A DNA stretch of 54,778 bases. It comes from Flavobacteriales bacterium (GTDB lineage: Bacteria > Bacteroidota > Bacteroidia > CAIKAF01). Numbering within the stretch: position 1 is the stretch's first letter; the number at the start of each line of letters is the position of its first letter. The stretch lies in the NCBI GenBank assembly GCA_022402535.1, contig JAKRSD010000022.1:1-54778 (forward strand). Reading direction: 5' to 3'. The notes under the pieces were generated by a model. It was not told where the DNA came from. It searched no databases and saw nothing but the letters and a program-made list of their open reading frames with translations. A program made the translations under genes and the position numbers. Of the stretch, positions 45,625 through 54,456 are shown one piece after another.

Positions 45625-47124
45625 TTGGAAAAGAAAGTATTGATAGTAGGTTCGGGTCTTGGCGCATTGTCCACGGCACTTCGTTTGTCATCTATGGGAT
45701 ATAGCCGGATAAAAATTGTGGAAAAATACCATTCTCCCGGTGGAAGATTGAATATTCTGAAGGACCAAGGATTTACGTTCGATATGGGACCTTCCTTTTT
45801 CAGTATGAGTTATGAATTTGACGAGCTGTTTAAAGCCTGCGGAATGAATAATCCGCTCAAGTTTAGAAAACTTGATCCGCTCTATTCGGTAAATTTTGCC
45901 GGCTCTGAGCGCCTGTTCCGGATTTTTACCGATTTAGATAAACTGGCTGCCGAGTTTGAAGGCATTGAACCCAACTTTAAAGAAAAAGCCCAAAAATATT
46001 TAGAAAACGCAGGGAAAATTTTCCATGATACGGAGTATAAAGTGGTGAAATCCAATTTTAATTCCACGCCTTCGTATCTGCTCAGTCTTGCCCAGGTTCC
46101 CTGGAAACATGCACCGCGTATGTTCTACAGCATGTGGACCGATTTGGAAAACACCTTTGAGTCGGAAGAAGCCAAAGTGATTTTTTCATTGGTGGCTTTC
46201 TTTTTAGGCGCAACACCTTTTGATACACCTGCGGTATATAAGCTGCTGAGTTATACCGAACTGGTGCACGATGGGTACTGGAACGTGGAAGGCGGTATGT
46301 ACAAAATTACCGAAGCCATGGTAAAAGAGCTTGAGCAAAGAGGTGTGCAATTTGAATATGGTGTGGAAATCTCGGATTACATTGCTAAAAATGGGAAAGT
46401 AACCGGTTTTACAGATACCCGCGGAAATATTCATGAGGCTGACATTATGGTGGTGAACGCCGATGCGGCTTCTTTCCGGGGAGAGATTTTTAAAAGGCCC
46501 AAATTCAGCGAAGAAAAACTCGATAAAATGGATTGGACGCTTGCGCCCTTCACCATTTATTTGGGTGTAAAAGGAAAGATTGAAGGGTTAAATCATCACA
46601 ATTACTTTTTGGGAAGTAATTTCCGCGATTATGCCGATAAAATTTTCAAACTGAGTGTGAATCCTGAAAAGCCGTATTACTACGTGACGGCCAGTTCCAA
46701 ATCCAATCCCGAATGTGCACCCGAAGGCTGCGAAAACTTATTTATCCTGTGTCCCGTTCCCGATATGCGCTATAAACCCAATTGGAGCGATGCCGAAGCT
46801 TTGGCCGATGTCATCATCAAAGATCTGGGCGACCGTGTAGGCTACGATATTTCATCGAATATCATCACCAAAATTGTGATGCCGCCCACCGAATGGAAAG
46901 ATAAACTGAATTTGTACAAAGGCAGCGGATTAGGACTGGCGCACGGATTAAATCAGATTGGGGCTTTCCGTCCCAAAAATCAGGACGAAGAATTTGATAA
47001 CGTGTTTTATGTAGGGGCTTCCACCACACCGGGAACAGGGCTTCCCATGGTGGTTATTTCATCACGCCTGGCTGTGGAACGCATTGCCGAATTTGATAAA
47101 AAACAAGAACCGGTCTTAGCATAA
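45625..47124 (+). CDS. crtI: Phytoene desaturase (CrtI-type)
   Basis: FAD-dependent enzyme that introduces double bases into phytoene to give lycopene-type carotenoids; 499 residues, standard length. The N-terminal dinucleotide fold is VLIVGSGLGALSTALRLSSM (GxGxxA form), then VEKYHSPGGRLNILKDQGFTFDMGPSFF, the usual CrtI block. The C-terminus has NVFYVGASTTPGTGLPMVVISS, the carotenoid-oxidoreductase signature. Start codon TTG at 45625, directly before the conserved EKKVLIVGSG. It lies 28 bases before crtB, probably in one transcript. A related 1,2-desaturase/hydratase-linked function (CrtD) is an alternative, but the crtB pairing favours CrtI. Confidence 0.92.
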   Translation: MEKKVLIVGSGLGALSTALRLSSMGYSRIKIVEKYHSPGGRLNILKDQGFTFDMGPSFFSMSYEFDELFKACGMNNPLKFRKLDPLYSVNFAGSERLFRIFTDLDKLAAEFEGIEPNFKEKAQKYLENAGKIFHDTEYKVVKSNFNSTPSYLLSLAQVPWKHAPRMFYSMWTDLENTFESEEAKVIFSLVAFFLGATPFDTPAVYKLLSYTELVHDGYWNVEGGMYKITEAMVKELEQRGVQFEYGVEISDYIAKNGKVTGFTDTRGNIHEADIMVVNADAASFRGEIFKRPKFSEEKLDKMDWTLAPFTIYLGVKGKIEGLNHHNYFLGSNFRDYADKIFKLSVNPEKPYYYVTASSKSNPECAPEGCENLFILCPVPDMRYKPNWSDAEALADVIIKDLGDRVGYDISSNIITKIVMPPTEWKDKLNLYKGSGLGLAHGLNQIGAFRPKNQDEEFDNVFYVGASTTPGTGLPMVVISSRLAVERIAEFDKKQEPVLA

Positions 47125-47152
47125 CAACATCAAACCGCTCAAACCTATACAG

Positions 47153-47995
47153 ATGAACCATATTGCATTATACAATCAAACTGCCGAACAATGCGGTAAA
47201 ATCATAACCAACCGCTATAGTACCTCATTTTCGTTGGGTATTAAACTGCTCGGAAAAGAAATTCGTGGGCCCATTTATTCCATTTATGCCTTCGTGCGTC
47301 TGGCCGATGAAATTGTGGACACTTTTCATGGACATGATAAAGCGGCCTTATTAGCCGAATTTAAAGCGGATACACAAAAAGCCATAGATCGAAAAATATC
47401 GGTGAATCCGGTACTTCATGCATTTCAGGAAGTGGTGCATCAATACAAAATAGAACAGGAACTGATTGATGCCTTTTTGGGCAGTATGGAAATGGATTTA
47501 ACGGGAAAAACGTACGATGATTCCCTGTATCAAAAATATATTTATGGTTCTGCCGAAGTGGTGGGATTGATGTGTCTTCGCGTTTTTTGCGCCGGAAATG
47601 AGCAGCAGTTTAACGAACTGAAAGATTCTGCCAGAAGTCTGGGTGCGGCATTTCAAAAGGTAAATTTTCTGCGCGATTTGAAAGATGATTTTGACGACAG
47701 AGGCCGTATGTATTTTCCGGGGGTGGATTTCAGTTGTTTTTCCAGTGCAGATAAACAGCAGATTGAAGAAGATATCCGTAAAGATTTTGAAGATGCGCTC
47801 GAGGGAATTAAACGCCTTCCCGACAGTTCCAGAAAAGGGGTTTATCTGGCATATCGCTACTACGTAAAGCTGTTTTTGAAAATCACCCGCCGCAATCCGG
47901 AAGAAATTAAAAACCACAGAATTCGCATCAATAATGCGTCCAAGGCATACATCATGATGAAGAGCTTTGCCCGTTATCAGTTGAATTTATTCTGA
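47153..47995 (+). CDS. crtB: Phytoene synthase
   Basis: Condenses two geranylgeranyl diphosphates to phytoene, the first committed step of C40 carotenoid synthesis; 280 residues. The two Mg-binding aspartate motifs are visible: VRLADEIVDTFHG (about residue 51) and NFLRDLKDDFDDRGRMYFPG (about residue 175). SFSLGIKLLG and YIYGSAEVVGLMCLRVF are further trans-isoprenyl-diphosphate synthase blocks. It lies 28 bases after crtI. Downstream carotenoid-modifying genes (crtY, crtZ) do not follow; folP does. Confidence 0.94.
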   Translation: MNHIALYNQTAEQCGKIITNRYSTSFSLGIKLLGKEIRGPIYSIYAFVRLADEIVDTFHGHDKAALLAEFKADTQKAIDRKISVNPVLHAFQEVVHQYKIEQELIDAFLGSMEMDLTGKTYDDSLYQKYIYGSAEVVGLMCLRVFCAGNEQQFNELKDSARSLGAAFQKVNFLRDLKDDFDDRGRMYFPGVDFSCFSSADKQQIEEDIRKDFEDALEGIKRLPDSSRKGVYLAYRYYVKLFLKITRRNPEEIKNHRIRINNASKAYIMMKSFARYQLNLF

Positions 47996-48025
47996 TTTTC
48001 TATCCATTAATTGCACCTTTGCGGC

Positions 48026-48862
48026 ATGATAGGTTTTAAATCCATCAACCTGAAGGGTGAATTGCTGACCTTTGAACATCCCCGCATCATGGGGATTTTG
48101 AACATTACGCCCGACAGTTTTTATGCAGGAAGCCGTGTTTCCGATATAGACAACCTGCTTATTCAGGTTGAAAAAATGCTTAATGAAGGCGCCGATATAT
48201 TGGATATGGGAGCGGTTTCCACACGACCGGGTTCGGATTTTATTTCGGAAGAAGAAGAAAAAAAACGTCTGCTTCCAGCATTAGAAATTGTGCTCAAGCA
48301 TTTTCCAAAAGCCAAAATCAGCATTGATACGTATCGGGCCTCTGTTGCAAGGGAAGCCATTCAATTAGGCGCAGCCCTGATTAATGACATTTCTGGAGGA
48401 ATAGCCGATGCCGAAATGATTCACACCGTGGCCGGTCTTCAGGTTCCTTACGTGGTGATGCATATGCGGGGCACTCCCCAGACCATGACTCTGCAGAATG
48501 TCTATCAGGCCTTTCCGCAGGATGTGTATTTTGAATTGGCCCAGCAGGTGGAAACTTGCAAACGGGCCGGTGTACATGATATCATCATAGACCCCGGATT
48601 TGGGTTTGCCAAAAATATTCAGCAGAATTTTGAACTCTTCCGCAGCCTACATCCGTCTTTTTTTGAAAATAATCCGTTGATGATCGGTATTTCTCGAAAA
48701 AGTATGATTTATAAAACCCTTAACACTACACCGGAACAGGCTCTGAACGGTACAACAGCTTTGCATATGTCGGCGTTGCAAAAAGGAGCAGATATCCTCA
48801 GGGGTCACGATGTGAAAGCAGCTGCAGAGTGCATAAAACTCTATCAGGAATTGAAGAGCTGA
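48026..48862 (+). CDS. folP: Dihydropteroate synthase
   Basis: Condenses hydroxymethyl-dihydropterin diphosphate with p-aminobenzoate in folate synthesis; target of sulfonamides. The ATG at 48026 is taken over a frame opening at 48011: a near-consensus -7 box (CACCTTTG, 48014-48021) ends only four bases before it. The 278 residues carry all landmarks: MGILNITPDSFYAGSRV, ILDMGAVSTRPGSDFIS, ISIDTYRASVAREAI, LINDISGGIAD, VVMHMRGTPQTM, IIIDPGFGFAKNI and ISRKSMIYKTLN. The following gene, dacA, is a common neighbour of folP in Bacteroidota. Confidence 0.95.
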   Translation: MIGFKSINLKGELLTFEHPRIMGILNITPDSFYAGSRVSDIDNLLIQVEKMLNEGADILDMGAVSTRPGSDFISEEEEKKRLLPALEIVLKHFPKAKISIDTYRASVAREAIQLGAALINDISGGIADAEMIHTVAGLQVPYVVMHMRGTPQTMTLQNVYQAFPQDVYFELAQQVETCKRAGVHDIIIDPGFGFAKNIQQNFELFRSLHPSFFENNPLMIGISRKSMIYKTLNTTPEQALNGTTALHMSALQKGADILRGHDVKAAAECIKLYQELKS

Positions 48863-48884
48863 AAAACCAACCGCCTAAAAACCT

Positions 48885-48892
48885 TACTTTTG
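48885..48892 (+). promoter_or_regulatory. -7 promoter box of dacA
   Basis: TACTTTTG matches TAnnTTTG exactly, 15 bases before the ATG at 48908, so dacA can be transcribed separately from folP. No -33 TTG at proper spacing. Confidence 0.55.
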
Positions 48893-48907
48893 TAGCATTC
48901 AATACGA

Positions 48908-49726
48908 ATGGCTATCAATATGTATCAATACATTCAAGATTTTTTCACCCAGTTTACTTGGCTGGATGTGATTGATTATCTGTTGGTCGCCTTGTTGTTA
49001 TATCAGTTTTATAAACTCATTAAAGGCACACCCGCATTAACCATATTTTTGGGTTTAGGTGCATTATATCTGTTATATCTTGTTACGGAACAGATCGGAT
49101 TAAAGGTATTGAGCCGTTTATTCGGGCAATTTGCCGGAGTGGGAGCTATTGCCCTGATTATTGTTTTTCAGCAGGAAATTCGCCGCTTTTTGTTATTCAT
49201 CGGAAAAGCCGGCGTTACGGGCCACCGTAACTTATTGTTGAAACTGTTCAAAGGAAAATCAGTGTTTACCTCACAGGAACCCGATGTTTCAGAAATTATA
49301 TCCGCATTACAGAAACTCTCATCCCAAAAATCAGGTGCATTAATTGTAATTACCGATCAGCCTGAATTTAAGCCGTATGAAGATACGGGAGTGGCATTGC
49401 ATGCCCAGCTAACGGCAGAATTACTTGAAAATATTTTCTTTAAAAATTCACCGTTACACGATGGAGCCGTTATCATCAGCGGAAAAGTGGTATTAGCCGC
49501 CCGGGTTATTTTGCCCGTTACCGAACAGGCCAATTTAGATGGTAACTTAGGACTTCGGCATCGGGCAGCCATTGGTATAAGTGAACATGCGGATGTATTG
49601 GTTTTTGTGGTTTCTGAGCAGAGTGGAGAGTTATCCATGGCTTACCGCGGAAAAATATTCACTAATATTGCACCCGATTTTGCTAAAAAGAAGTGCAAAG
49701 AGTATAAAGCGCATAAATTAAGATGA
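48908..49726 (+). CDS. dacA: Diadenylate cyclase (CdaA/DacA-type)
   Basis: Makes the second messenger c-di-AMP from two ATP molecules; it links to osmotic and cell-wall homeostasis. The 272 residues have an N-terminal membrane domain of three helices (about 15-100; YLLVALLLYQFYKLIKGT, LTIFLGLGALYLLYLV, AGVGAIALIIVFQQEIRRFL) and a DisA_N catalytic domain (about 125-265). The latter holds GALIVITDQPEF, the DGA motif in NSPLHDGAVIISG and the RHR motif in NLGLRHRAAIGISE. Length is typical of CdaA. Its last codon overlaps the start of a 42-residue membrane peptide, so the two are probably translated together. Confidence 0.95.
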   Translation: MAINMYQYIQDFFTQFTWLDVIDYLLVALLLYQFYKLIKGTPALTIFLGLGALYLLYLVTEQIGLKVLSRLFGQFAGVGAIALIIVFQQEIRRFLLFIGKAGVTGHRNLLLKLFKGKSVFTSQEPDVSEIISALQKLSSQKSGALIVITDQPEFKPYEDTGVALHAQLTAELLENIFFKNSPLHDGAVIISGKVVLAARVILPVTEQANLDGNLGLRHRAAIGISEHADVLVFVVSEQSGELSMAYRGKIFTNIAPDFAKKKCKEYKAHKLR

Positions 49727-49851
49727 CCTACGCCATTACCTGGGATTTTATTGCTGTATGGACGCTGTTTTCGATAGCTGTCGTGTTCATCGTGAAACCG
49801 CTATTTTATTCTGCCAAAAAGAAAAAGAACTGTAACAAATGTCACCCGTAA
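49723..49851 (+). CDS. Small membrane peptide with C-terminal CxxCH
   Basis: A 42-residue ORF whose ATG overlaps the dacA stop (ATGA at 49723-49726). The product begins MTYAITWDFIAVWTLFSIAV, has a single hydrophobic helix (about 8-29) and ends with a basic stretch followed by NCNKCHP. The layout (one helix, Lys-rich stop, Cys-rich tail) resembles FeoB-associated Cys-rich membrane proteins, but no feoB is nearby. The CxxCH could bind metal; a covalent c-type haem is unlikely because the Lys-rich segment puts the tail in the cytoplasm by the positive-inside rule. The next gene starts 14 bases later. Confidence 0.65.
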   Translation: MTYAITWDFIAVWTLFSIAVVFIVKPLFYSAKKKKNCNKCHP

Positions 49852-49865
49852 ATATAATTTCGTTA

Positions 49866-50852
49866 ATGAAAACAAATTGGTTTAGAACCGCTGTTGCCGC
49901 ATCGGCAATCGTAATGACAATTCCTGTTTATGGTCAGGATTTTAAAGCGCCCAAGGATAGTACTTCCAACTGGGCTAAACATTGGAAATATACACTGGAT
50001 GCCGGAATCAACGTAAACCAGGCTGCCTTTTCGGAAAGTTGGAAAGGGGGAGGGGTAAACAATGTGGCGTTTGGTGCGTATTTATTTGGTAGTCTGGATT
50101 ATAATAAAGATAAGTGGACTTGGAATAATACCTTAAAAACACAATACGGTCAAATTCTAACATTTAACCGCAATGCAAACAATAAACAAGTAGGTAATCT
50201 TCGTAAAGCCCAGGATTATTTTGATTTGGTGAGTAAAGCAGATTATAAAATATCTAAAATGTGGAGAGCTTTCGGACAGGTGAATTTCCTTACCCAGTTT
50301 GATAAAGGATATGATTACCGTGGAGTTGACCCCGGAGGTAAAGACATACGTGCCAGATTGAGTAATTTCATGGCACCTGGTTATCTTACGGAGTCTGTGG
50401 GTATAGAATTTAAACCGGTAGATTGGTTTTATGTAAATGTAGGTCTTATTGCACTTCGTCAGACTTTTGTTATTGATACCACCCTTTATAATGAAGTACC
50501 CGCTAATTATGGAGTGGAAATAGGTAAAAGGGTAAATAATCAAATTGGATTTTCATTGGAAACAGCCATTGATAAAAACGTGCATAAAAATGTAAACCTG
50601 AAATTTAAATACCGTGCATTTAAAGATTATACAGATCCTAATAGATTATTGGGCAATGGACAGGAAAATTTATCCGGACAAATGGTTCATCGTATCGATG
50701 CGTTGATTTCGGCCAAAATCACCAAGTACATCGTAACCAGTCTGGGTGCTATCGTGCTTTACGATGCCACGCAGGATAAACGAGTACAATGGAGTCAGGG
50801 GCTGGCTCTGGGTATAGCGTACAAAATATACGGAAACACGCCGAAGAAATAG
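49866..50852 (+). CDS. DUF3078 outer-membrane protein
   Basis: Bacteroidota-specific protein of 328 residues with a signal peptide (about 1-25, ending VYGQ). The ATG at 49866 is used; the upstream ATG at 49839 lies inside the small peptide gene. The mature part has the DUF3078 signature WKYTLDAGINVNQAAFSESWKG followed by GGVNNVAFGAYLFGSLDYNK, then beta strands of a predicted small barrel (LKTQYGQILTFNRNANN, FLTQFDKGYDYRGVDPGGKD) to the C-terminal ALGIAYKIYG. Function unknown; it is common near the end of core operons. An intrinsic terminator follows 18 bases after the stop. Confidence 0.86.
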   Translation: MKTNWFRTAVAASAIVMTIPVYGQDFKAPKDSTSNWAKHWKYTLDAGINVNQAAFSESWKGGGVNNVAFGAYLFGSLDYNKDKWTWNNTLKTQYGQILTFNRNANNKQVGNLRKAQDYFDLVSKADYKISKMWRAFGQVNFLTQFDKGYDYRGVDPGGKDIRARLSNFMAPGYLTESVGIEFKPVDWFYVNVGLIALRQTFVIDTTLYNEVPANYGVEIGKRVNNQIGFSLETAIDKNVHKNVNLKFKYRAFKDYTDPNRLLGNGQENLSGQMVHRIDALISAKITKYIVTSLGAIVLYDATQDKRVQWSQGLALGIAYKIYGNTPKK

Positions 50853-50870
50853 AAAAATACTATCCAAAAA

Positions 50871-50902
50871 AAAAGCCCTTTCAGCAATGAAAGGGCTTTT
50901 TT
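50871..50902. terminator. Bidirectional intrinsic terminator
   Basis: A 12-bp perfect stem (50871-50882 with 50889-50900, core AGCCCTTTC/GAAAGGGCT) with loop AGCAAT and A/T runs on both sides. It can end the DUF3078 transcript and the minus-strand lipoprotein transcript. Confidence 0.92.
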
Positions 50903-50917
50903 CGTATTGGGGGGATT

Positions 50918-51289
50918 TTACATAATGGTAAAGTCGTGGCTGTATTCTTTCACATGATCGTCTTCGCCCACTTTCACCCAAATGGTAAATATTGTGGGAA
51001 TAATTACATTGGCTTGAATTACATCTGTTACTTCAAAATCTTTTACTTCTACATGGTTGTCATAATCAAAAACAACAACTGCAGGATCTGATTTTTGAAA
51101 CACTTTGATTTCAATATCATGAATAATGTCCTCGCCATGAATATGAACATCTAAAGGCACAGGACTGGAATAACTCATGTCTTTTTCGGGAGAATTGATT
51201 TCGATGTCATATTCTCCTTTTTCTTTTTTACAGCCTGTAAAGGCAATTCCGATAGCCATAAAGGCCACTAATAACACTTTGTTTTTCAT
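50918..51289 (-). CDS. His-containing DUF4625-like lipoprotein 2
   Basis: Predicted outer-membrane or periplasmic lipoprotein of 123 residues; lipobox AFTGC near residue 19, then a Lys/Glu-rich spacer. The domain looks like one Ig-like beta-sandwich with DVHIHGEDIIHDIEIKVF at its centre: three His close together that could bind a metal ion. It follows lipoprotein 1 by one base and shares its transcript, and lies 16 bases from the intrinsic terminator. Related to DUF4625-type proteins by general features. Context with a TonB receptor suggests a metal-capturing accessory protein. Confidence 0.72.
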   Translation of the reverse strand: MKNKVLLVAFMAIGIAFTGCKKEKGEYDIEINSPEKDMSYSSPVPLDVHIHGEDIIHDIEIKVFQKSDPAVVVFDYDNHVEVKDFEVTDVIQANVIIPTIFTIWVKVGEDDHVKEYSHDFTIM

Positions 51290-51290
51290 A

Positions 51291-52031
51291 TTAATTTAAT
51301 TGTAGATTGACGGTTTTGATGTTCTTGTTAAAATAACTGTCGTAAGCTGTAACGGTGAGTATATAATTTCCGCTCGTCCAGGCTGCTCCGTTGGTGGGAA
51401 TTTCTTTTATCAGATTGAATTGGGTAACAGGGTTTGTCAACGTATCGTTGGATTGATACAGCGTATTAGCCGAATTGGGGCGACGCACCCGTGTACGGAT
51501 GATATACACCCGCTCATTATCTGTAATATTTGCATTCAGGGTAATTCCCGTTCCGAGTGCCAATGTTTGGTTTTCTGAAGGAGAATCAATGGAAATAGAG
51601 GGAGCAGTCGTGTCCGCATTATTACGAACATACAGACTTTTAACAGCAAGTTCTGATTGGTTTCCTGAGGCATCTACGGCAGTCAGTAAAAAATGGTACC
51701 AGCCGGCGGCTGCAGAATCCGGAACTTGAATTACAAAATTTTCACTTTGTTCTATTCCTGAAAGGTTTCCGATGATGATACGGCTCCATATCTGGGCAAT
51801 GTATTTATCGTGGCTATGCCCTTCAAAATTTTCATGAATGTCTATTTTGTACTGCGATAACGCCTCGTTATCAAAAAAAATGGCATTGAAAGGGATTTCC
51901 GTGCCGGCTTCCACCACAAGTGAATCTGCCGGGGATACCCATGAAAACGTAGGTTTGTCTTTATCGGTTTTTCTGCACGATATCAATCCGGTTGCAAGAA
52001 CCGCGAAGAGGATAATGGTGATTTTTTTCAT
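51291..52031 (-). CDS. DUF4625-like lipoprotein 1 with His-rich motif
   Basis: Lipoprotein of 246 residues; ATG 52031 gives MKKITIILFAVLATGLISC with the lipid-attachment Cys at about residue 19. Two Ig-like beta domains follow (about 30-140 and 145-245), the first with the His-rich stretch IDIHENFEGHSHDKYIAQI and the second a typical surface Ig-like fold (TAPSISIDSPSENQTLALG). The His cluster could bind zinc or copper. It has its own promoter, with a palindrome (52040-52054) overlapping the -7 box; the same palindrome precedes the TonB receptor, so the two are probably co-regulated. Confidence 0.76.
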   Translation of the reverse strand: MKKITIILFAVLATGLISCRKTDKDKPTFSWVSPADSLVVEAGTEIPFNAIFFDNEALSQYKIDIHENFEGHSHDKYIAQIWSRIIIGNLSGIEQSENFVIQVPDSAAAGWYHFLLTAVDASGNQSELAVKSLYVRNNADTTAPSISIDSPSENQTLALGTGITLNANITDNERVYIIRTRVRRPNSANTLYQSNDTLTNPVTQFNLIKEIPTNGAAWTSGNYILTVTAYDSYFNKNIKTVNLQLN

Positions 52032-52039
52032 AACGTAAA

Positions 52040-52054
52040 TGCAACAGTGTTGCA
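52040..52054. promoter_or_regulatory. Candidate metalloregulator operator 1
   Basis: TGCAACAGTGTTGCA, a palindrome with 7-bp arms around one base. It overlaps the minus-strand -7 box TATATTTG (52060-52053), so a bound regulator would block the promoter. The ATG of lipoprotein 1 is nine bases further on. The palindrome is identical in both arms to operator 2. Confidence 0.7.
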
Positions 52055-52060
52055 AATATA
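52053..52060 (-). promoter_or_regulatory. -7 promoter box of lipoprotein 1
   Basis: TATATTTG on the minus strand, an exact TAnnTTTG match, overlapping the palindrome by two bases, 21 bases before the ATG. Confidence 0.6.
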
Positions 52061-52064
52061 AAGT

Positions 52065-54443
52065 TTATATTTTTATTTCCAAGGGAATAATCAGGCTCAT
52101 CAGAAAGTTTCTTCCCGGTTCAGGTAAACCCAATTGGCGCCAGTTGCTCAGATGGTTAAAGTATTTGGTGTTGGCGATATTCTGTACCGAAAAGCGAAGC
52201 TTGAGGGTTTGGGAACGAATTTGAAACGATGTACCCAAATTCAAATTGATGATTCCGTATCCGGGTGTGGTCAGTTCGTTTCGCGCTGTTAACACTTGTG
52301 GGGCCGCCCATCGCAATTCAATTCCCGCAAAACTTTCCCCCAGCCATTTACCGGGCATATCGGCTTCGTATTCCACTTCGGCATGTCCGCTTGCCGGGGG
52401 AATCAGCGGAAAGTTATATCCCGTGGCCGGGCTGTAGGTGTATACAAACTGTCCGCCCGAATTTAGATGTAATCCTTTAATGGGATGATAATCCACAAAA
52501 AACTCCAAACCGGTATGCATACCATCATTCTGGTTGTATTTCCACAACAAGCCGGCTTCGGGCAAAGGCGAGAACTCGGACGTGGGATCCAGGTAAATAA
52601 ATCCGAAATAATAATTAAAGAAAGGGGAGAGGCCGAAATCCAACTTTTTGCCTTCGTGGGTAATGCCAAAATCAAATTGAATTCCGCGTTCAGACGTGAG
52701 TGTGCTGTCGCCTTTTTCGTGTCTCAGTGAACCGTGATGAATACCGTTGGCAGTGAGTTCGATAGCAGTAGGAAGGCGATACGAACTTCCCAGATTAAAT
52801 TTCAGATTCCAGCCTTCTTTTGGAATCATGGTATATCCGATGGCTCCCGAAACATTGTTGTAATTGCGGTTTATGGACGGACTCACCCTTTCGGTGCCGG
52901 ATGCCACATTGTTTTGATATACCGTGCGGTAAAACGCAGCGGATTGGATATGGGCATAATCAAAACGCACACCCGCCGATAAAATCTGGGTAGGTTTTAT
53001 TTCGTATTTGAAAAACGAATATGCCCCGATGCCCCATTCTGTAAAGCTGGGTATCAAAAAGGAATAGCCCGCACTCCGGTTATGCCGGTGTTGTCCGTTA
53101 ATACCATAGATGGCTTTTAATTTTGAAGTGATAGGGTGATGGTATTTGATATTTCCCGAAAGGGTGCGCAACGAAAAAGAAAGCTCAGTGTTTCCTTGCG
53201 GGGTGGGCGCCTGACCGTGGGTATGCGGTTCCGAATATTCGTTTCTCAGGTTTTGTTGAAATCCCAAATCTGATTCCAGCCAGCCTTTTCCAATGCGGAT
53301 ATTGGAATTGGAAATCACTTTGATGTGTTTCACATCCTGCGAAGGCAAATCGCGGTTTCGGATAGATTCGTCGGCACTCAAATCATTTACATTCGGAATA
53401 CCGTGCGCTCCAGGGAAAAAACCGGCTTTTAAATCATAATAAGTGGCGCTGAGCATACTGTAGCCCCAGTTTTTTACCAATCCCATGCTCACGGAGGCAT
53501 TCCGTTCGCGTCCGGCAGTATTTTTCAGCCGTCGGTTTTCAATCGGCAATATAAATGAATTGTAAGTGAATTCATCTGCGGGAACGGCATAGTCGGCGTA
53601 ATCCTGTCCCGAAAAACGGGCTTTGAACAACAGCCCTTTTTTTTGCAGTCCGGCATGGGCCGAGTATCCGAAAAGATGATTGTTGGAACGGTAAGTGAAT
53701 AATCCGCCGGCATGCAGTCTGTCTGGTTTCAGCGAAAACACGGGACGAATATTGATGATGCCGCTGATGGCGTCGCTGCCATATAACAAAGAGCCGGGAC
53801 CTTTAATGATTTCTACCCTTTCTACATTAAATTGGTCTATTTCCAGTCCGTGGTCGGCGCCCCATTGTTGTCCTTCCTGTTTCAGTCCGAATTCGGCCAC
53901 GGCCACCCGGTTAAATCCCAACCCGCGGATTAGCGGTTTGGCAATGCCTGTTCCCGTGGTTACGGCCTGCACGCCGGGTACTTTGGTCAAAATTCCGGCA
54001 AAGGAACTGCCCGGGTTTTTATCGATAAATTCCTTATCAATCACCGTGATGGATTGCGAAATTTCGTTTTTGGTGGTGCGAAAACGGCTGTCTTCAATCT
54101 CCACCCGTTTCAGTTCGGAAGTAGATTCTTTTAAGCGCAGCGTGCCTAAATCCAGGGTGCCGCCCAGAGGAACATCCACAATCAAAGGGGCATACCCGAT
54201 CAGCGTGATATGCAGGTGATAATTGCCGGGTTTCAGGTTTTCAAATTCAAATTTTCCGCTTCCATCCGTCACTTTCCCTTTTTCCAGCTCATGTATGTAA
54301 ATATGGGCATCTTCCAGCCGTTCACCGGTCTTTTCATCCGTCACGGTGCCTTTCAGGTTTATACCGTTTTGAGCAGAAACATACGGGGTTATCCACCAGG
54401 CTGAAAGCAAAAACAATATGCGGATTGTATATTTATGCAACAT
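52065..54443 (-). CDS. TonB-dependent receptor, ZnuD-like (probable metal uptake)
   Basis: Outer-membrane receptor of 792 residues (start ATG 54443; a TTG at 54464 is less likely). A signal peptide ends near YVSAQ. A carboxypeptidase-D regulatory-like domain follows (about 24-105; NLKGTVTDEKTGERLEDAHI), then the plug (about 115-240; GTGIAKPLIRGLGFNRVAVA, QQWGADHGLEIDQF, GPGSLLYGSDAISGIINI) and a 22-strand barrel ending KYFNHLSNWRQLGLPEPGRN. Extracellular loops carry His-rich motifs (EPHTHGQAP, NGIHHGSLRHEKGD), and the WGADHG plug motif is typical of ZnuD-like zinc receptors. Two His-containing lipoprotein genes follow with an identical upstream palindrome. Zinc is the likely substrate; copper or another metal is possible. 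Confidence 0.87.
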   Translation of the reverse strand: MLHKYTIRILFLLSAWWITPYVSAQNGINLKGTVTDEKTGERLEDAHIYIHELEKGKVTDGSGKFEFENLKPGNYHLHITLIGYAPLIVDVPLGGTLDLGTLRLKESTSELKRVEIEDSRFRTTKNEISQSITVIDKEFIDKNPGSSFAGILTKVPGVQAVTTGTGIAKPLIRGLGFNRVAVAEFGLKQEGQQWGADHGLEIDQFNVERVEIIKGPGSLLYGSDAISGIINIRPVFSLKPDRLHAGGLFTYRSNNHLFGYSAHAGLQKKGLLFKARFSGQDYADYAVPADEFTYNSFILPIENRRLKNTAGRERNASVSMGLVKNWGYSMLSATYYDLKAGFFPGAHGIPNVNDLSADESIRNRDLPSQDVKHIKVISNSNIRIGKGWLESDLGFQQNLRNEYSEPHTHGQAPTPQGNTELSFSLRTLSGNIKYHHPITSKLKAIYGINGQHRHNRSAGYSFLIPSFTEWGIGAYSFFKYEIKPTQILSAGVRFDYAHIQSAAFYRTVYQNNVASGTERVSPSINRNYNNVSGAIGYTMIPKEGWNLKFNLGSSYRLPTAIELTANGIHHGSLRHEKGDSTLTSERGIQFDFGITHEGKKLDFGLSPFFNYYFGFIYLDPTSEFSPLPEAGLLWKYNQNDGMHTGLEFFVDYHPIKGLHLNSGGQFVYTYSPATGYNFPLIPPASGHAEVEYEADMPGKWLGESFAGIELRWAAPQVLTARNELTTPGYGIINLNLGTSFQIRSQTLKLRFSVQNIANTKYFNHLSNWRQLGLPEPGRNFLMSLIIPLEIKI

Positions 54444-54450
54444 TGTTGCA
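54436..54450. promoter_or_regulatory. Candidate metalloregulator operator 2
   Basis: TGCAACATTGTTGCA, the same 7-bp arms as operator 1 with a different central base. It overlaps the minus-strand -7 box TATATTTG (54456-54449) and also contains the start codon of the receptor (54443-54441). Read by a Zur/Fur-family repressor this would shut off receptor synthesis. Confidence 0.7.
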
Positions 54451-54456
54451 AATATA
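54449..54456 (-). promoter_or_regulatory. -7 promoter box of the TonB receptor
   Basis: TATATTTG on the minus strand, an exact TAnnTTTG match, only five bases before the ATG at 54443. A transcript from this box would have almost no leader. Confidence 0.6.

Follow-up and report, generated by a model that had tools for sequence, protein, structure and literature searches.

A probable palindromic operator and a candidate zinc regulon in Bacteroidota with a ZnuD-like receptor and DUF4625 lipoproteins

The promoters of a ZnuD-like TonB-dependent receptor gene and of a lipoprotein gene pair in a Flavobacteriales bacterium carry the same exact palindrome, TGCAACA-N-TGTTGCA. Both lie on the 54,778-nucleotide contig JAKRSD010000022.1 (assembly GCA_022402535.1), the whole of which was analysed and is referred to here as the window. 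The palindrome is very probably a Bacteroidota Zur operator that controls the receptor, the DUF4625 lipoproteins that go with it and a ZIP importer. Zinc is the metal suggested by the company of genes and by the nearest solved relatives, Escherichia coli Zur and Neisseria meningitidis ZnuD. An original prediction, made from the window alone, had proposed a regulon under a metal-responsive Zur/Fur-like repressor; this proposal is supported by the genes behind the palindrome across the class, by FeoB and ZnuA-family loci that lack the box, and by a Zur-type Fur gene of the same genome behind a related site. The features concerned are as follows.

54436–54450, no strand assigned: operator 1, TGCAACATTGTTGCA, exact palindrome TGCAACA-N-TGTTGCA at the receptor promoter
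54449–54456, minus strand: TATATTTG, element of the Bacteroidota -7 type over operator 1, read from the sequence, with a putative promoter role
52065–54443, minus strand: ZnuD-like TonB-dependent receptor, 792 residues from the ATG in operator 1, assigned by Pfam and structure-relative matches
52040–52054, no strand assigned: operator 2, TGCAACAGTGTTGCA, exact palindrome TGCAACA-N-TGTTGCA at the lipoprotein promoter
52053–52060, minus strand: TATATTTG, -7 type element over operator 2, read from the sequence
51291–52031, minus strand: DUF4625 lipoprotein, 246 residues, two immunoglobulin (Ig)-like domains and the histidine loop IHENFEGHSHD, assigned by Pfam and an AlphaFold2 (AF2) model
50918–51289, minus strand: small lipoprotein, 123 residues, containing HIHGEDIIH, an open reading frame (ORF) one base past the DUF4625 gene

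Direct reading and a pattern search confirmed that identical palindromes occupy the two promoters, each over an exact TATATTTG, as the original prediction had it. The trinucleotide TTG is common to each palindrome and its minus-strand TATATTTG, and the genes downstream are also on the minus strand. The palindrome has a 7-1-7 format. When the whole genome of 3,410,929 bases was searched, as had been proposed, only two sites were found at up to one mismatch, both at the promoters already noted; the reversed palindrome, used as a control, had no site in the same genome. A scan of the window alone at three mismatches was unremarkable (6 sites found, 3.4 expected). The looser form TGCAA-N5-TTGCA had six sites genome-wide: three coincide with the promoters of the receptor, DUF4625 and ZIP-Fur genes, two are intragenic and one lies where a gene that looks unrelated begins.

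Genes behind the palindrome across Bacteroidia

A class-wide pattern search found the exact palindrome in 57 of 396 Bacteroidia genomes, with no hits to the reversed control among the genomes listed in that search. We read 67 palindrome loci, the window among them, for which the pattern was the sole criterion of choice, and sorted the genes that follow the palindrome into families with Pfam checks. Recurring families accounted for 55 of these loci; the other 12, some of them intragenic, were not assigned by this comparison. At 12 loci the gene immediately behind the palindrome belonged to the Fur family; at a thirteenth (L047, genome G014) a ZIP-type gene was followed by a Fur gene. Other families included DUF4625-type lipoproteins (10 loci), relatives of the window receptor (ZnuD-like, 9), MerC (9), COG0523/CobW GTPases (3) and small histidine-rich exported proteins (at least 4). 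Thus, instead of standing mainly before unrelated genes, which would have spoken against a metal regulon, the palindrome preceded Fur/Zur, COG0523, MerC, ZnuD-like, DUF4625 and ZIP-Fur genes.

Gene order was also retained. Genome G011 (L044) has the window's set of receptor, DUF4625 and small-lipoprotein genes in unchanged order, and both promoters carry the palindrome. On an Aureispira contig (L107), two exact palindromes lie between the receptor and an operon that reads DUF4625 lipoprotein, small lipoprotein, MerC, one further gene and COG0523 GTPase.

Several further genes were seen behind the palindrome. A thioredoxin-reductase-like flavin adenine dinucleotide (FAD) oxidoreductase (GGSYAGLSAA...) occurred at 10 loci (L045, L053, L058, L062, L065, L073, L075, L077, L079 and L096), and an acidic lipoprotein family with IPNEEEVITT and a DLDGDGG stretch at 7 (L059, L060, L074, L076, L081, L095 and L097); the one member of the latter that was scanned had no Pfam match. 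In three genomes (L050, L086 and L091), one palindrome lies between divergent genes for MerC and a LolD-type ATP-binding cassette ATPase. An M23 peptidase gene behind the palindrome at L071 recalls the endopeptidase that Zur controls in Vibrio cholerae (PMC6381278).

The association was also examined in reverse, from gene families to the palindrome. DUF4625 was searched for in 149 genomes of the class and 30 loci were taken, a site being counted when at least 12 of the 14 letters of the palindrome matched, a level with a probability of about 0.001 in shuffled 270-base stretches. Such a site was present at 14 of 30 DUF4625 loci, compared with 0 of 30 ZnuA-family and 0 of 30 FeoB loci from the same class. 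Of these 30 DUF4625 loci, about 20 had a homologue of the window receptor next to them. In extended sequence at 14 DUF4625 loci, sites of 11–14 letters lay upstream of receptor-DUF4625 operons in most. Near-palindromes separated a divergent Fur gene from the receptor-DUF4625 operon at L147, L149 and L150, and at L158 a Fur gene preceded the receptor on the same strand, again with a near-palindrome. As for the ZnuA-family loci, many are probably manganese transporters, because a DtxR/MntR-like gene lies next to 14 of the 30. Eight ZnuA-family loci apart from those 14 (L159–L164, L168 and L171), from several Bacteroidia, have open frames of about 570–730 residues, twice the usual length, and these are perhaps fusions with a permease.

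The receptor, the lipoprotein pair and the second Fur

The receptor matched the Pfam Plug (E = 5.5e-20), barrel (3.9e-25) and CarbopepD_reg_2 (7e-16) domains, and its nearest solved chain was N. meningitidis ZnuD (4rdr, E = 8.7e-12). The high-affinity zinc site of ZnuD is printed as D90/H100/E340/H499 (PMC4557270). Both the plug Asp-His pair (H100 and the preceding Asp) and the barrel H499 align with the receptor, while E340 falls outside the alignment. In the aligned ZnuD chain these histidines are at 114 and 513, a spacing of 399 residues that equals that of H100 to H499. The string WGADHG, which the original prediction had called ZnuD-like, is present in the receptor ORF; its Asp-His pair is shared with ZnuD in the alignment, but the whole string is not. 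An AF2 model of the receptor built from two sequences had a mean predicted local distance difference test (pLDDT) score of 39, too poor for use. The best start codon is the ATG at 54443–54441, inside operator 1 (TGCAACAATGTTGCA) and 5 nucleotides past the -7 box, so the receptor mRNA may be leaderless. The receptor of G011 has the same kind of start, with its ATG within the operator.

The 246-residue lipoprotein is a clear DUF4625 member (PF15418, E = 4.6e-27, 95.3 bits against a gathering score of 27) and also contains a Big_7 domain (E = 3.3e-10). Its AF2 model, built from three sequences, consists of two Ig-like sandwiches with a mean pLDDT of 74.7, in which the histidine motif lies in a low-confidence loop (residues 69–81 below 50). 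A fold search with this model returned generic Ig and fibronectin type III sandwiches at low template-modelling scores and was uninformative on function. The motif IH..[FG]D.H.H is kept in most box-linked DUF4625 proteins and is absent from several box-free ones. The 123-residue lipoprotein had no Pfam match over the cut-off, DUF4625 included. Since the gap between the two genes is a single base, they probably form one operon. The small lipoprotein has an orthologue in L044 at the same place (54% identical), and in L044, L106 and L107 the operon has a counterpart at this position. Both histidine motifs that had been reported for this pair, IHENFEGHSHD and HIHGEDIIH, were found in the respective ORF translations.

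Downstream of the pair lies one further element.

50865–50901, no strand assigned: inverted repeat AAAGCCCTTTCAGCAATGAAAGGGCTTT with A and T runs on its flanks, read from the sequence; probably the shared terminator of the lipoprotein operon and of a DUF3078 gene

Beyond it, in 45625–50852, ORF translations judged by eye resemble phytoene desaturase, phytoene synthase, dihydropteroate synthase, a diadenylate cyclase-like membrane protein and a DUF3078 protein, the last being the only one for which a family search was made.

Elsewhere, the genome encodes two Fur homologues, a canonical Fur (L003) and a second, Zur-type protein.

Contig C30, L004:1396–1830: Zur-type Fur homologue, 144 residues, PF01475 E = 4.1e-11, over the cut-off

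Just upstream of the gene for this second Fur lies a ZIP transporter gene, which scores 37.9 bits with PF02535, where the cut-off is 35.1. Among solved structures the second Fur is closest to E. coli Zur (4mtd, E = 9.2e-7), with PerR next by a small margin (3.9e-6). Alignment showed two CxxC pairs (CMQC and CRKC) and HVHFFC, predicted zinc ligands that are common to the palindrome-linked Furs; DRVT[LIV]YRTL in the recognition helix and HxHFxC..C are likewise shared with most of these and not with L003. Most palindrome-linked Furs are 33–49% identical to the second Fur (two are 28–29%) and about 20% identical to L003. No ZnuA gene and no convincing COG0523 gene was found in this genome.

Competing explanations and a proposed mechanism

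Several observations weigh against a zinc regulon under Zur. An exact copy of the palindrome is missing from 339 of the 396 Bacteroidia genomes, and the operator must therefore drift or differ. Neither the FAD oxidoreductase nor MerC has an established tie to zinc, hallmark Zur targets, zinc-free ribosomal protein paralogues for example, did not turn up at the 67 loci read, and none of the 30 ZnuA-family loci had the box. In the present genome, the ZIP-zur promoter site, TGCAACTCAATTGCA, is imperfect, its outer half-sites being the same as those of the palindrome. With the ZnuD model NF038289, whose curated cut-off is 950, the receptor reaches 106.6 bits, and because this is far too low we call it ZnuD-like rather than ZnuD; among NCBIfam models, haem-receptor ones score it best (TIGR01785, E = 1.8e-35, under the cut-off). 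Surface export of lipoproteins follows a rule in which a K-(D/E)2 or S-D-D-type signal stands just past the lipid cysteine (PMC5080379). Between +2 and +7 the N-termini CRKTDKDK and CKKEKGEY contain two acidic residues each, along with basic ones, and they are not clean signals of this kind.

The top-scoring haem-receptor model, and the fact that zinc is not the sole link of the MerC and COG0523 families, could indicate a Fur-family repressor for another metal (Fe, Mn, Co or haem) on this operator and a receptor that imports that metal or haem. We consider this quite unlikely, given that a canonical Fur is encoded separately in this genome and shares only 22% identity with the linked regulator, that FeoB and ZnuA-family loci have no box, that the nearest solved relatives are Zur and ZnuD, and that ZnuD itself was once misannotated as a haem receptor through shared motifs (PMC4557270). 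An iron regulon was dropped on account of the box-free FeoB loci and the separate Fur, and a haem receptor on account of scores under the haem-family cut-offs. It is fairly unlikely that the receptor imports carrier-bound zinc, from a zincophore or a host or community zinc protein, with lipoproteins that capture the carrier rather than free zinc. There are precedents in gonococcal TdfJ, a ZnuD relative reported to draw zinc from S100A7 (PMC6692053), and in the capture of vitamin B12 by surface lipoproteins in Bacteroidetes (PMC6143338); however, no biosynthetic or carrier gene was seen next to the receptor, and both alignable ZnuD zinc-site residues (H100 and H499) are kept. Perfect inverted repeats can also arise as RNA hairpins or as a repeat element without regulatory meaning, a reading that is refuted, to our minds almost completely, by the two genomic copies, the class-wide gene specificity and the zero count of the reversed control.

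The alternative that bears most on the lipoproteins accepts a Zur regulon and denies that they feed the receptor: they would buffer zinc in the periplasm, act as structural partners or lids for the receptor, or belong to the general zinc-stress proteins. Some DUF4625 genes have no receptor nearby, the export signals of the window lipoproteins are ambiguous by the rule above and the DUF4625 fold is a generic Ig-like sandwich, all of which fit this alternative. On the other side stand the receptor homologue beside about 20 of 30 DUF4625 loci and the histidine motif that goes with the box. We lean against it while regarding it as a real possibility. Capture of zinc by the lipoproteins for the receptor, as originally predicted, is plausible. 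In a wider form, which we put forward tentatively as one that could well hold, DUF4625 proteins would serve to capture zinc at the cell surface, as dedicated subunits of a receptor complex that occurs across Bacteroidota under the control of Zur and in which the Ig-like lipoprotein with its histidine loop loads the ZnuD-like receptor and zinc then passes to ZIP with no ZnuA step.

Under the Zur reading, when zinc is plentiful a dimer of the zinc-loaded Zur homologue would sit on TGCAACA-N-TGTTGCA, over the -7 element and the start region, and block RNA polymerase. When zinc is scarce, three promoters would be derepressed, those of the ZnuD-like receptor, the DUF4625 and small-lipoprotein operon, and the ZIP-zur operon. 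Zinc would then cross the outer membrane via the receptor and the inner membrane via the ZIP protein. The lipoproteins, with their Ig-like domains and flexible histidine loop, would have an assisting role at the outer membrane, where they would most likely bind zinc close to the receptor; this is the weakest step of the scheme.

Relation to known systems

Zur regulons are well known, and Zur boxes have been catalogued for Bacilli, proteobacteria, cyanobacteria and actinobacteria. The Zur sites of Haas et al. 2009 cover Bacilli, proteobacteria and cyanobacteria, Bacteroidota not being included. Our literature search, with subscription papers and databases such as RegPrecise outside its scope, found no description of this operator, of a Bacteroidota Zur box or of a DUF4625 function; the palindrome halves returned unrelated primer matches, and a zinc paper on R. 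anatipestifer has ZntR as its subject and contains no such palindrome. The DUF4625 family (PF15418) has no function attached, and the search found no paper naming it. In the gut, in soil and in the sea Bacteroidota are a dominant phylum, and a simple, highly specific operator would make the zinc regulon readable from sequence in many of their genomes. It would also link part of DUF4625 to zinc, give this family and the unnamed lipoprotein and histidine-rich families a testable role, and suggest a route of zinc over the outer membrane in bacteria without ZnuABC.

As in Bacteroides BtuB-BtuG and similar systems, a TonB receptor is accompanied by lipoproteins, an arrangement common in Bacteroidota (PMC6143338); the lipoprotein fold is unrelated, the proposed substrate differs, and a complex of the present receptor and lipoproteins is putative. 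Neisserial ZnuD, an outer-membrane zinc transporter, is the closest solved structure and aligns with the receptor at the plug Asp-His (H100) and the barrel His (H499). Unlike ZnuD, the receptor carries at its N-terminus a CarbopepD_reg domain, as is typical in Bacteroidota, is linked to lipoproteins and falls well below the ZnuD model cut-off.

The closest parallel is with the Zur regulons of E. coli, Bacillus subtilis and Caulobacter. The Fur-family regulator is closest to E. coli Zur, a 7-1-7 palindrome over a promoter is one of the known formats of Zur boxes (PMC6103462), and receptors, importers and COG0523 proteins are among the targets in Caulobacter and others (PMC4176598, PMC2770081). 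The E. coli Zur motif, TRWNAYRWTATAWYRTNWCA (quoted in PMC6103462), differs from TGCAACA-N-TGTTGCA. In further contrast to those regulons, the members here include DUF4625 lipoproteins, MerC and an FAD oxidoreductase, and ZnuA-family genes lie outside.

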